A stretch of 34,843 nucleotides of DNA from Robertmurraya sp. (GTDB lineage Bacteria; Bacillota; Bacilli; Bacillales; Cytobacillaceae): positions 1 to 34,843 of the forward strand of contig JANWJP010000057.1 of NCBI GenBank assembly GCA_025451895.1. The letters are read 5' to 3'. The stretch's first letter is position 1, and each line of letters begins with the position of its first letter. Below are positions 21,686-29,513 of the stretch, in pieces. The position numbers and the translations under genes were made by a program. The notes under the pieces were generated by a model. That model was not told the origin of the DNA. It did no database searches and saw only the letters and a list, made by a program, of their open reading frames with translations.

Positions 21686-24600
21686 CTATTTTAACACAAC
21701 ATTTTTTTCTCCCAGAAAAGCAGATAGTTTTTTCAAAAGACCGGCTGTGGGAGAAACCCTGTGCTCTTGTTTCAAGCGTATAGTACGCCTTGAACTTTCA
21801 TAGAATAAAACTACATCTGTGTTTCCTTTGCTGTCTTTAAGGATCTCTTTTAATTCCTGTAATTTATTTATATCTTCCATACTTTTTTCAATTTTTAAAT
21901 ATAAAGTCCCGGTTTGCTTCTCAATCCTCCTGATTGCAGTTTGAAATTCGACTGCATCGTCAACGATCAACTGCCATTTTCCCTGGCGAACATCGATTTT
22001 CCCTTGAAATAAAAGAATATTGCCCGTCTCCAGTAAAAGCATGATCTTCTTATAGGTCCGTGGAAATACAACCGCATCCAGTTCACCGCTCTGATCGCTT
22101 AAAGTCAAAAATGCCATGGCCTCTCCGTTTTTAGTGCGGATTTTCCTTACCTCCCCAATAAGAGCCGCAGTTTTTTCATTACTGGAAATATGTCTTAACC
22201 GGGATAAAGGTTTCACTCCCAGTACGGAAAAGTACTTTTCAAATTGTGTTACTGGATGATCAGACAGATAAAGACCGAGTACTTCCTTTTCAAACCGGAG
22301 CTTATCCTGTTGACTAATCGGTTCAGTTTCCACATACTTTGGCTTTAATTCAAAAAGCAAATCCCCTTGCTCCACTCCATCCGGTTTCACAAGCTGGGCA
22401 TGGTCCACTGCCACATCAATACTTGCCAACAGTACAGCGCGGTCAACCCCAAACTCATCAAAACTTCCTGAATGAACAAGTGCTTCTATCGTTTTTCGAT
22501 TGACACTTTTGCTCGGCACTCTTAAACAAAAATCAAACAAATCGAGAAAATCCCCGTTTTTTCTTGCTCTAAAAATTTCCCTAAGCGCCGCATGGCCGAC
22601 ACCTTTAATAGCTGCCAAGCTGTATCGGATTTGGTTGTTTTCCACAAAAAAGGAATAACCGCTTTTATTTATGGAAGGAGGAAGAACTGAAAATCCCATT
22701 TCTCTCAATTCCCGCAAATATTCTGCAATCTTCCCTTCGTTTCCCGTCACTGACGACAACAGACTGGACATAAAAAATAAAGGAAAATGAGCCTTTAAAT
22801 AAGCCAGTTGATAAGCTATAAAACTGTATGCCACTGCATGGCTGCGATTAAAACCGTAATTTGCAAATTTAACAATCAAATCATAGATCATATTAGCTGT
22901 TTCGCGGTCATACCCTTTTTTTACAGAGCCATGAACAAAATGCTCCCTTTCTTTATCAAGAATCTCCTTTTGCTTTTTACTGACGGCACGTCTGAGCAAA
23001 TCCGCTTCCCCTAAGGTAAAACCGGCCATTGTCGAAGCAATTTGCATAATCTGCTCCTGGTAAACGATGACGCCGTAAGTCTTTTCCAAGATTGGCTTCA
23101 GATCCGGATGTGGATAATGAACTCTCTCAATACCATGCTTTCTCTTTATGAACGTCGGAATATTTTCCATTGGACCAGGCCGGTAAAGGGCATTAACAGC
23201 CACAATATCTTCAAAACGGCTCGGTTTTAATTCCCTTAAAACATTACGCATCCCTTCTGATTCGAGTTGAAAAACCCCTGTTGTTTCCCCCGAGGAAAGA
23301 AGCCGGTATGTTTTCCCGTCATCTAAAGGAATTTCTTTAATATTAATTGTCTGACCGGTGTGCCTTGAAATGGCATCAAGGATATTTTCGATTAAAGTTA
23401 AATTTCTCAAGCCCAGAAAATCCATTTTAAGCAATCCGGCATCCTCAAGATGCTCCATGGAATACTGGGTCAAGTAGATTTCATCATGCCCCTCCTGAAT
23501 CGGAACAGATTGGACAAGGGGTTCTTCGGAAATCACCACTCCCGCCGCATGGATGGACGTATGGCGCGGCAATCCTTCCAATTTGCAGGCAGTTTCAAAG
23601 AGTCTTTTATTCAAAGGGGATTCGTCAAGATATTTCCTGAGACCCTCAGACTCTTCCAAAGCTTGATGCAACGTAATTCCAAGCCGGGATGGAACCAGTT
23701 TTGCCAAATGATCCTGTTCCTTTGCACTTAAGCCGAAAACCCTTCCGACGTCACGTAACACGGCGCGGGCTGCAAGCGTTCCAAAAGTAATAATTTGAGC
23801 AACATGCTGTTTCCCGTATTTATTTGCCACATACCGGATGACTTCATCCCGCCTGTTGTCGGGAAAGTCAATATCAATGTCAGGCATAGTGATTCGTTCC
23901 GGATTTAAAAAGCGCTCAAATAAAAGTCCGTGTTCCATCGGATCGACATCTGTAATATATAAACAGTAGGCAACCATGGATCCTGCCGCAGACCCCCGAC
24001 CGGGACCCGCAAGAATTCTATTTTCTCTTGCGAACCGCATAAAATCCCAGACAATCAAGAAATAATCAGAAAATTTCATTCGCTTGATAACAGCAAGCTC
24101 ATAAGACAGTCTTTCCTTATAATCCCCCCGTCCTTCCCCGTATCGTTTTTGAAAACCTTTCCAGCACAATTCTTCAAGAAATTCATCAGCCGTAACAGAA
24201 TCTTCCAGCGGATATCTCGGCAAATTCTTTTTATCCGCCGCGAGCATAACATTACATTTCCCGGCAACACGTAGAGTATTTTCCAAAGCATCAGGATAAG
24301 ACAAAAACAGCTCAGTCATTTCTTCTGCTGTTTTTAAATAATATTCATTACTTTCTAATTTTTCCCTTTTTCCTTCCTGAAGTTTTTTTCCCTCTTTAAT
24401 TGCCAGCAAGCATTCATGAGCAAAGGAATCTTCTTTTTCCAAATAAAAAACTTCATTAGTCGCAATAAGACCGGTTCCGGTTTTCCCGGAAATTTGCGCC
24501 AGATCTTTTATCAACTGCTTTTCCTTCTCAAGACCGTGATCTTGAACAGCAAGGAAGAAGCTCTGAGATTCAAAAATTTCCTTAAAGAGCTCCGTACAAC

Positions 24601-25036
24601 GCAATGCTTTCTCCAAATTTCCGCGAAGGAGATTTGTCTCAATTTCCCCTTTCAGGCCCGGCGTAAAAGCAAACAATCCTTCTGAATATGCCCTCAGCCA
24701 TTTAACAGGAAGCCCTTCCTTCGCTTTTGTCTGCACCGCGCTTGATATCTTCAGGAGATTTTGATATCCCTTTTGGTTTTTTGCCAGTAATACGAGGGGG
24801 TAGGCCTCTTGTTCCTCCACAATACTCATCACGTCTACAGTTAATCCGATAATTGGTTTTATGCCCTGCTTTACACACTCCTTATAAAAGGCAAAAGTAC
24901 CGTACATAACATTATAGTCTGTCAAAGCAATTGCAGAAAATCCTTTCTTTTTTGCATTGCTCACGAGATTGTCAATGTTGGCCGTACTGGATAAAAGACT
25001 GTAGGCGCTGTAAACATGAAGATGAACAAATGTCAA
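21686..25036 (-). CDS. dnaE: DNA polymerase III alpha subunit, DnaE type
   Basis: This replicative C-family polymerase in Bacillus extends RNA primers before PolC takes over. The 1116-aa protein has the usual length. An N-terminal PHP domain (about 1-200) precedes the palm with GPGRGSAAGS (about 344-353) and the catalytic PDIDIDFPD (about 385-393). Finger and tandem helix-hairpin-helix regions follow, with an OB fold near residue 990 (AALIGEVRKIRTKNGEAMAF). The PHP metal motif is degenerate (HLHVYSAYS with Y9; ALTDYNVMYG), so a PHP nuclease is unlikely. The start is TTG 25036 with GGGGGG before it; the 17-residue extension upstream lacks a ribosome site. Confidence 0.96.
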   Translation of the reverse strand: MTFVHLHVYSAYSLLSSTANIDNLVSNAKKKGFSAIALTDYNVMYGTFAFYKECVKQGIKPIIGLTVDVMSIVEEQEAYPLVLLAKNQKGYQNLLKISSAVQTKAKEGLPVKWLRAYSEGLFAFTPGLKGEIETNLLRGNLEKALRCTELFKEIFESQSFFLAVQDHGLEKEKQLIKDLAQISGKTGTGLIATNEVFYLEKEDSFAHECLLAIKEGKKLQEGKREKLESNEYYLKTAEEMTELFLSYPDALENTLRVAGKCNVMLAADKKNLPRYPLEDSVTADEFLEELCWKGFQKRYGEGRGDYKERLSYELAVIKRMKFSDYFLIVWDFMRFARENRILAGPGRGSAAGSMVAYCLYITDVDPMEHGLLFERFLNPERITMPDIDIDFPDNRRDEVIRYVANKYGKQHVAQIITFGTLAARAVLRDVGRVFGLSAKEQDHLAKLVPSRLGITLHQALEESEGLRKYLDESPLNKRLFETACKLEGLPRHTSIHAAGVVISEEPLVQSVPIQEGHDEIYLTQYSMEHLEDAGLLKMDFLGLRNLTLIENILDAISRHTGQTINIKEIPLDDGKTYRLLSSGETTGVFQLESEGMRNVLRELKPSRFEDIVAVNALYRPGPMENIPTFIKRKHGIERVHYPHPDLKPILEKTYGVIVYQEQIMQIASTMAGFTLGEADLLRRAVSKKQKEILDKEREHFVHGSVKKGYDRETANMIYDLIVKFANYGFNRSHAVAYSFIAYQLAYLKAHFPLFFMSSLLSSVTGNEGKIAEYLRELREMGFSVLPPSINKSGYSFFVENNQIRYSLAAIKGVGHAALREIFRARKNGDFLDLFDFCLRVPSKSVNRKTIEALVHSGSFDEFGVDRAVLLASIDVAVDHAQLVKPDGVEQGDLLFELKPKYVETEPISQQDKLRFEKEVLGLYLSDHPVTQFEKYFSVLGVKPLSRLRHISSNEKTAALIGEVRKIRTKNGEAMAFLTLSDQSGELDAVVFPRTYKKIMLLLETGNILLFQGKIDVRQGKWQLIVDDAVEFQTAIRRIEKQTGTLYLKIEKSMEDINKLQELKEILKDSKGNTDVVLFYESSRRTIRLKQEHRVSPTAGLLKKLSAFLGEKNVVLK

Positions 25037-25187
25037 GGATATCCCCCCTTTTTCGATGTCCTTATACTTTCTATTATAGAACTTCACTTTCTAAAAGGCT
25101 ATTCACCGTTAATGTTTCGTTGGCTTCCACGCCAATCAAACAGCGGAAAATTGCAAAAAAAAAATTCCCCGTGATTTTCTGTAACAA

Positions 25188-26247: not shown

Positions 26248-27195
26248 TTACATATTTTCATCTTGTTCACAAAGCCTTTCAATATCCTCCAAAACCCGAT
26301 CCATTTCATCCCATGAGTATATGGTGGCCCCTGCCGCAAGCGGATGTCCGCCGCCCCCGTATTTTTTGGCAAGTTCATTAATAGCCGGGCCTTTGGAACG
26401 GAAACGGAGACGAATTTCCCCCTCTTCTTCAACAAAAAACACCCAGGCTTTAATTCCGGCTACACTGCCCAAAGTACTTACCAGCTGCGATGCCTGTGAA
26501 GGTTCCGCATTATATTTTTCAAGCAGCTTTTTATCCAGTACCACAGAGGCTGCGCCGTTTTCGGACATCTTGAAATTCTCAAAAATGTAACCATTCAGTT
26601 TAACAATATTTAAAGGCAATTCATTCATTTGATCCAACAGCTCAGTGCGGGAAAAATCGTATTCTATTAATTCTCCCGCATATGTAAAAGTCTTATTTGT
26701 CGTGTTTGGGTAAAGAAACCTGCCCGTATCCCCTACAATTCCCGCATAAAGAAGTCTTGCTGCTTCATCGGACATTTTTAACCCGGCTTTCTTCCCATGC
26801 AAATATAGCTCGTAAATCATTTCGCTGCAGGAACTGGCATTGGTATCGACCCAAACAAGATCACCATATGGCTCATCATTGGGATGATGATCTATTTTTA
26901 TGAGCATATCTCCGAGTTTGTAGCGCCCATCATCAATTCGTTCCATATTGGCTGTATCTGTTACAATAACAAGCGCTCCCTCATAAGTTTCATTTGGAAT
27001 CGTGTCCAGACGGTGCAAATAATTCAGCGATGGTTCCTCTTTCCCCACCGTATAGACCTTTTTTCCCGGAAAGGACGCTTTAATTATTTCCGCCAGTCCC
27101 CCCTGCGAACCGTATGCATCCGGATCGGGACGGACATGGCGGTGAATGATAATTGTTTCATATTTTTTTATGGCTTTGATAATTTCTCCTATCAT
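26248..27195 (-). CDS. nrnA: NrnA, nano-RNase and pAp phosphatase (DHH family)
   Basis: NrnA degrades very short RNA oligomers and hydrolyses 3'-phosphoadenosine 5'-phosphate, linking RNA turnover with sulfur metabolism. The 315-aa protein has the DHH-family metal motifs in order: HRHVRPDPDAYGSQ, VTDTANMERI, and DHHPNDEPYGD. The C-terminal DHHA1 substrate domain has GGGGHPLAAGATI. ATG 27195 follows AAAGGAG. It is the gene called ytqI in B. subtilis. The divergent ytpI lies upstream, and a 19-bp tandem repeat between them overlaps the candidate nrnA promoter. Confidence 0.95.
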   Translation of the reverse strand: MIGEIIKAIKKYETIIIHRHVRPDPDAYGSQGGLAEIIKASFPGKKVYTVGKEEPSLNYLHRLDTIPNETYEGALVIVTDTANMERIDDGRYKLGDMLIKIDHHPNDEPYGDLVWVDTNASSCSEMIYELYLHGKKAGLKMSDEAARLLYAGIVGDTGRFLYPNTTNKTFTYAGELIEYDFSRTELLDQMNELPLNIVKLNGYIFENFKMSENGAASVVLDKKLLEKYNAEPSQASQLVSTLGSVAGIKAWVFFVEEEGEIRLRFRSKGPAINELAKKYGGGGHPLAAGATIYSWDEMDRVLEDIERLCEQDENM

Positions 27196-27743: not shown

Positions 27744-29063
27744 TTAACCGCGATCAAGTATTCGGCACATCATCATCGCTTTTCCAACCAGTTTTCCTTC
27801 GTTAAAAATCTCCACATCCAGTTTCCCAAACCTGCGCCCCGCCTCAAGAATATGGGGATGAATTTCCAGCATGCTGTCCATTTGCACCGGTTTAAGAAAA
27901 TAGATGGTGATATTTTCAACAACAAGTTCTCCCTTTTTGAAGCCTTTTAAAACACCGTTTGCAGCCTCTGTAATCAGGGTGGTCAGAACTCCGTAAGAAA
28001 CGGTTCCGAGATGATTAGTCATTTGCGGTGTGATCTCGCAACGATATATATCATCATTTTTGTGTTTTCCTCTGGCTAATATTAACTGACTGGTGATAAT
28101 ATCATCAATTGTTTCACCGACTTGCGGCTGCCGTTGGCTTGTCTGCATGGCCTTCAAAACATCCTGGCGGCTGATAATTCCCTTTAATTTTCCGTTGTCA
28201 TCCACAACGGGCAAAAGTTCAATGCTTTCCCAAACCATCATATGGGCTGCAGAAGCAACACTTGTTTTTACGCTGACAGTCATGGGGTTTTTGGTCATGA
28301 TTTTTTCAATCGATTTATCACTGTCAATTCCTAACACATCTTTTGCCGTGACAATTCCCTGAACCTTTAAGTTTTGGTCCACAACCGGATAGCGGCTGTG
28401 AGTAGTCTCTCTGTTTAATTCCAGCCATCTCTCCACTTTATCTGTTACCTTAAGATAATACGTTTTTTCCAGCGGCGTTAATATATCCTCAACAAGAATA
28501 ATTTCCTTTTTAATTAACTGGTCATAAATGGCCCGGTTAATCATGGTCGCTACGGTAAAGGTATCATAGCTGGTCGATATGATCGGGAGTTCAAGCTTGT
28601 CTGCAAGCTTTTTTACTTCTTCATCAGTATCAAATCCCCCGGTAATTAACACACCTGCGCCTGCGTTTAAGGCATACTCATGAGCTTTTGTCCTGTTTCC
28701 AACAATGAGCAGATTTCCGGCGCCTGTGTAGCGCATCATCGCTTCAAGCTTCATGGCCCCAATCACGAACTTGTTGAGGGTTTTATGAAGTCCGGCACGT
28801 CCGCCCAACACTTGACCATCCACAATATTTACGACCTCTGCGTAAGTAAGCTTTTCAATATTTTCTTTTTTCTTTTGCTCAATCCGAATGGTTCCGACGC
28901 GCTCAATCGTGCTGACAAAGCCTTGATTCTCAGCCTCCTTAATAGCCCGGTAAGCTGTTCCTTCACTTACGTTCAGCGCTCTGGCAATTTGTCTTACTGA
29001 AATTTTTTCTCCAATCGGCAGTTGGTCGATATATCTTAAAATTTGTTCATGTTTTGTGGCCAA
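27744..29063 (-). CDS. ytoI: YtoI, HTH-DRTGG-CBS-hotdog regulator
   Basis: This is a four-part, 439-aa predicted regulator. An N-terminal winged helix (about residues 1-60; ISVRQIARALNVSEGTAYRAI) is followed by a DRTGG-type domain (about 75-180; LLIVGNRTKAHEYALNAGAGVLITGG). Then come two CBS modules (about 190-310; SRYPVVDQNLKVQGIVTAKDVLG, LLPVVDDNGKLKGIISRQDVL), which typically bind adenosyl nucleotides. A C-terminal hotdog/thioesterase-like domain ends the protein (about 320-435). The order suggests a DNA-binding sensor of a nucleotide and perhaps an acyl-CoA, but no ligand is known to me. TTG 29063 is chosen, with GGAGG about 9 bases upstream; GTG 29072 abuts that site. Confidence 0.9.
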   Translation of the reverse strand: MATKHEQILRYIDQLPIGEKISVRQIARALNVSEGTAYRAIKEAENQGFVSTIERVGTIRIEQKKKENIEKLTYAEVVNIVDGQVLGGRAGLHKTLNKFVIGAMKLEAMMRYTGAGNLLIVGNRTKAHEYALNAGAGVLITGGFDTDEEVKKLADKLELPIISTSYDTFTVATMINRAIYDQLIKKEIILVEDILTPLEKTYYLKVTDKVERWLELNRETTHSRYPVVDQNLKVQGIVTAKDVLGIDSDKSIEKIMTKNPMTVSVKTSVASAAHMMVWESIELLPVVDDNGKLKGIISRQDVLKAMQTSQRQPQVGETIDDIITSQLILARGKHKNDDIYRCEITPQMTNHLGTVSYGVLTTLITEAANGVLKGFKKGELVVENITIYFLKPVQMDSMLEIHPHILEAGRRFGKLDVEIFNEGKLVGKAMMMCRILDRG

Positions 29064-29255
29064 GTCCTTCACCCTCCACCTGTTTACTACATTAATATAT
29101 GATCACAACTCTATTATAAGGTGAAAAGACCGGCAGATTCAATTCGTACTCTTGCAAAATAACTATTTTTATCCTCGTTTTTCCGTGTTTTGGGATTTAA
29201 TACTCTTTTTTACACATTTTCGGGACGATCTTCCCCTTTTTACCCGTTTGCTGTA

Positions 29256-29513
29256 CTATGATCCTCTTAAATATTGGCGGGATGAGACACCTTTTTTCAC
29301 CTTTACCGAAACCACTTTTTTTCGCACAGCGTTTTTGCGCGGTGAAAATAGCAGCCGCGCCATGTTTCCGGCAATAGCAAATAGGAGCAGGGTCAGCCAT
29401 GCAAAGGAAAATAGCACCCCCGGACCCTCCCCATGTAATGGAAGATGAGGAATGGCGTAATATAAAAGCAATCCGCACAGCAGCAAATAAAGAAAATACT
29501 TGTTTTTGTTCAT
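29256..29513 (-). CDS. Small two-helix membrane protein
   Basis: I do not recognise this family by name. The 85-aa product has two clear hydrophobic helices (about residues 5-22, KYFLYLLLCGLLLYYAIP; and 33-54, VLFSFAWLTLLLFAIAGNMA). A strongly basic C-terminus (RKNAVRKKVVSVKVKKG) probably lies in the cytoplasm. ATG 29513 is preceded by GAGGTG at good spacing, and hydrophobic pattern and codon use look coding, unlike the overlapping frames. It lies between ytoI and ytkL on the same strand. It may be a membrane-associated regulator or structural peptide; function cannot be stated. Confidence 0.65.
   Translation of the reverse strand: MNKNKYFLYLLLCGLLLYYAIPHLPLHGEGPGVLFSFAWLTLLLFAIAGNMARLLFSPRKNAVRKKVVSVKVKKGVSSRQYLRGS

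Follow-up and report, generated by a model that had tools for sequence, protein, structure and literature searches.

A YtoI/SpxR-Type Transcription Factor with HTH, DRTGG, CBS and HotDog Domains in Robertmurraya: Conservation, Linkage to dnaE and a Candidate Operator

Introduction

Which signals are sensed, and which genes are served, by a protein that joins a DNA-binding domain, a DRTGG domain, a CBS pair and a HotDog fold in a single chain? The question is raised by a gene of Robertmurraya sp. located on the contig JANWJP010000057.1, of which the whole stretch of 34,843 nucleotides, referred to here as the window, was analyzed. The initial annotation of this gene supposed that neither a ligand nor a regulon had been defined for such proteins, which is true only in part. 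The homologous YtoI protein of Bacillus anthracis (BA_4858) binds c-di-AMP in DraCALA performed on extracts, with ATP being no competitor; the paper presents it as a receptor for c-di-AMP whose function is not known (PMC11302148). For the streptococcal homologue SpxR, the targets spxB and cps are in print. The transcription of spxB is reported to require SpxR (PMC9888711, PMC3069532), and the expression of spxB is lowered in the spxR mutant of Streptococcus sanguinis (PMC3069532). Pneumococcal SpxR, together with CpsR, represses the capsule. In the cps control element, its DNA-binding domain recognizes two inverted 11-mer repeats, and the full-length protein binds a 21-bp part of this element with a Kd of 71 nM; SpxR was observed as a tetramer at high salt and, with DNA, as a trimer at low salt (PMC9888711). 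The authors of the same 2023 paper still call the ligands of SpxR unknown (PMC9888711).

Results

The gene and its start codon

The ytoI/spxR-type gene occupies positions 27744..29063 of the minus strand, from a TTG start codon at 29063 to a stop codon at 27744-27746, as indicated by the open reading frame, the Pfam and NCBIfam matches and the relatives. The open frame chosen by the ORF tool begins at a GTG at 29072 and encodes 442 amino acids. In the 80 close loci compared, the position equivalent to 29063 is TTG in 79 and ATG in one, and a Shine-Dalgarno-like string precedes this start in all 80, whereas in five loci the frame of the upstream GTG differs from that of this start, and in another one the GTG lies one codon further away. 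Since the TTG is kept in relatives and the frame of the GTG not in all of them, the TTG is the likelier start. The strand and both ends of the gene as initially annotated are right, 29063 being a better start than 29072.

The Shine-Dalgarno-like string GGAGGGTG (29070..29077, minus strand) is conserved and lies 6 nt ahead of the TTG. A sigma-A-type promoter is placed 50-79 nt upstream of the start codon on the same strand and consists of the -35 hexamer TTGAAT (29137..29142), a spacer of 18 nt and the -10 hexamer TATAAT (29113..29118); this form of promoter is seen in 68 of the 80 close loci. An 85-aa open reading frame without any Pfam match at E <= 0.001 was observed beside ytoI at 29256-29513, and a similar sequence is present in 76 of the 80 close loci.

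Domain architecture and family membership

The Pfam search placed the domains in the order HTH, DRTGG, CBS and HotDog in one chain. The E-values were 1.5e-32 for DRTGG, 1.2e-20 for CBS (in two stretches), 5.8e-11 for the 4HBT HotDog and 8e-06 for HTH_24, which is above the family cut-off. The full-length NCBIfam model TF_CBS_SpxR (NF038279) matched residues 6-438 of the GTG-numbered protein at 8.6e-129. The four-domain architecture is therefore real and beyond chance, and the initially proposed combination of HTH, DRTGG, CBS pair and hotdog proved correct in both the Pfam order and the full-length NCBIfam match.

Several known systems share a part of this architecture. FapR is composed of an HTH and a non-catalytic HotDog responding to malonyl-CoA, and only of these two domains (PMC516016), whereas the window protein has the DRTGG and the CBS pair in addition. 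A FapR-type two-domain regulator was rejected because of these extra domains; no FapR model was present among the best 25 of the 49 NCBIfam matches. The DRTGG and CBS domains are also common to the regulatory region of the family II CBS-pyrophosphatases (3l31, 3l2b). A pyrophosphatase fragment was rejected as well, since no DHH catalytic domain was found among the best 25 of the 33 Pfam families matched and the four domains with their linkers take up the whole chain of 442 residues. The CBS-associated HotDog subfamily with BH3175, described by Dillon and Bateman in 2004, unites 21 Firmicutes proteins of unknown function having DRTGG, two CBS and HotDog domains; no HTH was seen in its description (PMC516016), and the window protein does have one.

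Streptococcal SpxR has the same domain order, and its model is matched over the full length. The score of the window protein is 430 bits, below the curated cut-off of 600 bits that defines SpxR proper. The four-domain order, the full-length relatives across Bacillota and the nrnA/dnaE neighbourhood place it instead in the YtoI/CBS-associated HotDog family, the model of which is also matched by the Bacillus subtilis control genome. The streptococcal SpxR-type sequences retrieved share 33-39% overall identity with the window protein and have a nearly identical recognition helix. By the gene names, alongside the shared neighbourhood, we take the window gene to be the YtoI of Bacillus and B. anthracis. 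Judged by sequence, it is a Bacillaceae YtoI/SpxR-type transcription factor belonging to a known family. YtoI of Listeria is reportedly tied, according to the title of a paper by Chen et al. from 2019, to the rescue of DHNA-deficient Listeria.

At E <= 1e-30, the family was found in 244 of the 250 sampled Bacilli genomes. The 600-bit cut-off of NF038279 was passed in only 11 of these 250, all from one genus. These genomes were taken as streptococci because of the SpxR model score and a spxB-type gene scoring over its own cut-off in 10 of the 11. At E <= 1e-40 against the window protein, relatives were found in 79 of 398 Bacillota genomes. None of the 17 candidate stretches obtained by scanning viral contigs encoded a YtoI relative. 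A phage collection contained 13 records with ytoI-like matches, eight of which cover at least 80% of the query. Among the ten phage records listed, nine bear the label of a Listeria, Enterococcus or Staphylococcus phage and carry unannotated ytoI-like genes (OR847510, OR847421, OR849368, OR848422, OR844993 and others); these records look like bacterial host DNA.

Conservation of the domains and the likely ligands

The conservation was analyzed in an alignment of 54 members, namely the window protein and 53 relatives that were picked from 178 and are 30-82% identical to it. The mean pairwise identity was 0.65 for the HTH, 0.50 for DRTGG, 0.41 for the CBS pair and 0.29 for HotDog, and the 17 invariant columns were distributed among them as 14, 2, 1 and 0, respectively. 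The winged helix-turn-helix (28878..29063, minus strand; residues 1-62 in TTG numbering) has an invariant recognition region that includes S22-V23-R24, S33, G35-T36, Y38, A40 and K42. In the DRTGG domain (28530..28838, minus strand; residues 76-178), there is an invariant D167, and 50-51 of the 54 members (>90%) keep R124 and G142-G143; these residues look like a ligand site. In the CBS pair (28137..28505, minus strand; residues 187-309), T239 is kept in 45 members and D242, R299 and D301 in 50 each; we assume that these are the usual CBS nucleotide-motif residues.

The AlphaFold model of the window protein had a mean pLDDT of 66 and a pTM of 0.44, with good quality in the CBS pair, fair in the HTH and HotDog and poor in the DRTGG domain. 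It should be noted that the alignment behind the model was shallow, and the geometry of the DRTGG domain was not used. The best Foldseek match and closest solved chain, 6uof, lies over the CBS pair; its title names CBS domains from a transcriptional regulator of Streptococcus pneumoniae, and in sequence it is similar to the CBS pairs of the streptococcal SpxR-type proteins in the alignment. The HotDog domain matched the fold of the CoA-bound SP_1851 (4zrb) with a TM of 0.77-0.81 on the target.

The HotDog domain (27747..28097, minus strand; residues 323-439) evolves fast. Its match to a CoA-bound fold, as well as the presence of E366 at what is presumably the catalytic Asp/Glu position of related thioesterases, would agree with a working acyl-CoA thioesterase, which would make the protein a bifunctional enzyme-regulator. 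We regard this as very improbable, since none of the invariant columns falls in HotDog and its identity is below that of the other three domains. As to the catalytic residues, the fate of which the initial annotation had left to be checked, the putative carboxylate is not kept: the position is Glu in only 16 of the 54 aligned members, the others having N, T, Q and other residues, and in 27 of 80 in a separate comparison. A catalytic HotDog was thus rejected on the basis of this presumed catalytic position. As this carboxylate is not conserved, HotDog is probably a sensor or an oligomerisation domain free of catalytic constraint.

For the CBS pair, c-di-AMP is the best ligand candidate by analogy, because a homologue binds this nucleotide and a diadenylate cyclase domain is encoded in the window genome. 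AMP, ATP or Ap4A are possible ligands of the window protein as well. Rather than c-di-AMP, the pair might sense a diadenosine polyphosphate such as Ap4A or the ratio of AMP to ATP, like the regulatory region of the CBS-DRTGG pyrophosphatases: both the DRTGG and the CBS stretches gave matches to 3l31 and 3l2b, which are pyrophosphatase chains, and to several pyrophosphatase models, and one of the top fold matches in the CBS part is AcuB, of which structures with AMP, ADP, ATP and Ap4A exist. The domain order differs, however, as DRTGG precedes the CBS pair in the window protein and lies between the two CBS domains in the pyrophosphatases. Given also that c-di-AMP was bound by YtoI of B. anthracis without competition from ATP (PMC11302148), we consider such adenylate or Ap4A sensing rather unlikely and retain c-di-AMP as the leading candidate.

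A candidate operator

The recognition region of the HTH is invariant and, therefore, a single DNA code is predicted across the family. In the ytoI promoters of Paenibacillaceae (L228-L247), the sequence TACAGNNTAGTACAGAT is located directly past the -10 hexamer, and it forms the sole block conserved at >=95% between the -10 and the Shine-Dalgarno string in three genera. The pattern TACAGNNTAGTACAG was found in 20 of 21 Paenibacillaceae genomes. It has 22 places in all, 20 of which are immediately upstream of ytoI, as against four places for the reversed control pattern.

The cps element of SpxR is described as a 10-bp perfect inverted repeat with a 17-bp spacer, and its letters were not found in the main text of the paper describing it (PMC9888711). 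A 37-bp element of this geometry was picked in one streptococcal genome, where it lies upstream of a frame resembling cpsA (L203, one of 20 streptococcal stretches). It fits an SpxR-type cps element, an identification made by us from the described geometry. This element and the Paenibacillaceae site have the 11 bases AGAATAGTACA in common; among 20000 dinucleotide shuffles of the element, 158 had an 11-mer in common with these sites. The Paenibacillaceae element is thus a weak, suggestive candidate for a YtoI operator.

The SpxR 11-mer ACTA-N3-TAGT was derived from the 37-bp element of L203. Its exact form ACTANNNTAGT occurs in six places of the 3.2 Mb window genome versus 147 for the reversed pattern, and these places did not form a convincing promoter set. 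With up to one mismatch, the 11-mer occurs seven times in the window versus a chance mean of 6.27. No exact site was found at the ytoI of the window. Among 150 ytoI upstream regions, the exact 11-mer was present in none and a variant with one mismatch in 11, the window included; in 30 further regions, it was absent even with one mismatch. The pattern RNATAGTACAS gave five matches in the window genome versus 14 for its reversed control, none of them convincing.

Upstream of spxB, the CCTATTGTAGG site was present in six of the 11 streptococci. The core ATAGTACA with up to one mismatch was seen there in 10 of the 11, with six sites near -263 and the rest elsewhere, a count that has no control. 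A weight matrix applied to 180 ytoI upstream regions placed 14 of them above the 95th percentile of shuffles versus nine expected, and five of these 14 were Paenibacillaceae regions used in building the matrix. Family-wide autoregulation is not supported, as the scan gave no excess outside Paenibacillaceae.

In five Paenibacillaceae, AGNATAGTACA was not enriched (30 matches versus 37 for the reversed control); four of the 30 matches are at ytoI and three upstream of Asparaginase_II genes. There are 19 Asparaginase_II genes in 17 of 26 genomes, and 16 of their upstream regions were readable and three were not. Fifteen of the 16 readable Paenibacillaceae regions (L285-L303) contain TGTACTATA(C/A)T and one does not. 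The motif upstream of L-asparaginase II may be either a promoter -10 or a YtoI-type site. Asparaginase_II is not claimed as a YtoI target, because the motif overlaps a plausible -10 hexamer. Among the matches listed in our literature search, no YtoI operator outside streptococci was found in print.

Gene neighbourhood and linkage to dnaE

The nrnA gene (DHH-DHHA1; 26248..27195, minus strand) stands beside ytoI in all 80 close loci. The dnaE gene for the alpha subunit of DNA polymerase III (21686..25087, minus strand) lies about 2.65 kb downstream of ytoI on the same strand and was found in 75 of the 80, several of the loci being cut by contig ends. The dnaE frame of the window begins about 17 codons ahead of the start in relatives, and the start chosen by the ORF tool is probably too early.

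The linkage was further followed in 69 diverse loci, 29 with a flank of only about 1.5 kb and 40 for which about 5 kb was asked on each side. The latter come from 49 remaining genomes, nine of which (partial matches or congeners of included genomes) were left out, and two of the 40 have less than 1.4 kb downstream. In 50 of the 69 loci, dnaE is downstream of ytoI on the same strand, and in 32 of the 69 its first aligned residue is at most 150 nt from the ytoI stop codon. Of the 40 long-flank loci, 37 have dnaE downstream of ytoI on its strand and three lack it, namely L147, L152 (streptococcal) and L155; unlike the ytoI of the window, the spxR gene at L152 is without dnaE in flanks of 5 kb. 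Judged from small flanks against whole genomes, the linkage of ytoI and dnaE kept across the phylum is strong. It may mirror genome architecture rather than function.

In the same 40 loci, pfkA follows ytoI in 12, YvcK and RapZ precede it in six each, and a match of the WhiA-HPr fusion probe (WhiA, HPr or both) precedes it in 13. Outside Bacilli, the loci L113, L120, L124 and their relatives have the RapZ, YvcK and WhiA/HPr genes before ytoI and dnaE and pfkA after it. Loci of this type bring genes that control carbon use and the envelope together with the gene of the replicative polymerase.

The linkage could reflect direct control of dnaE transcription by YtoI, as the position and strand of dnaE in 37 of the 40 long-flank loci and its closeness in 32 of the 69 would suggest. 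Outside Paenibacillaceae, though, operator-like sites were not in excess in the ytoI upstream regions covered by the matrix scan, the two genes of the window are separated by about 2.65 kb, and the published targets of SpxR are spxB and cps (PMC9888711, PMC3069532), so that we hold direct control to be distinctly unlikely. A YtoI-dnaE link was not found in print among the matches listed in the literature search.

Discussion

The protein of the window likely acts as a regulator in which the HTH binds an operator, the CBS pair binds an adenine nucleotide and HotDog serves for sensing or oligomerisation, whereby metabolism is tuned. In the mechanism we propose, the protein would act as an oligomer, with its HTH bound to a short operator near the target promoters. 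The CBS pair would bind an adenine nucleotide, most plausibly c-di-AMP in view of the homology to YtoI of B. anthracis. HotDog, having lost the catalytic constraint, would serve either for oligomerisation or as a sensor tuned in each lineage, with CoA thioesters as a possible ligand. A ligand on the CBS pair, and perhaps also on DRTGG and HotDog, would shift the form of the oligomer and alter its grip on the operator, and the change in binding would match pyruvate/acetate overflow and envelope genes to the energy status. Since ytoI stays linked to dnaE, and in several clades also to rapZ, yvcK, whiA/HPr and pfkA, YtoI may belong to the genes that match growth and replication to the carbon supply.

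A broader proposal makes YtoI a phylum-wide integrator, with the HTH and the operator (core ATAGTACA) frozen, HotDog retuned in each lineage, and dnaE and carbon genes coupled. We consider this a long shot. If true, in the many clades with ytoI directly beside dnaE the protein would tie central carbon genes and the supply of replicative polymerase to the status of c-di-AMP or adenylate together with that of acyl-CoA, and it would be a transcriptional link from metabolism to replication.

The family is partly characterised: its existence, the architecture (described in 2004), the role of SpxR in streptococci and the binding of c-di-AMP in B. anthracis were already known from the cited papers. 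The strong genomic linkage to dnaE and the contrast between the frozen HTH and the fast HotDog are new leads. The family is near-universal in the sampled Bacilli and is tied in the cited publications to streptococcal capsule and H2O2 production. The YtoI/SpxR-type regulator probably adjusts metabolism to nucleotide, perhaps CoA, signals, and the frozen HTH, the dnaE linkage and the operator candidate make the question of the ligand and regulon of YtoI testable.
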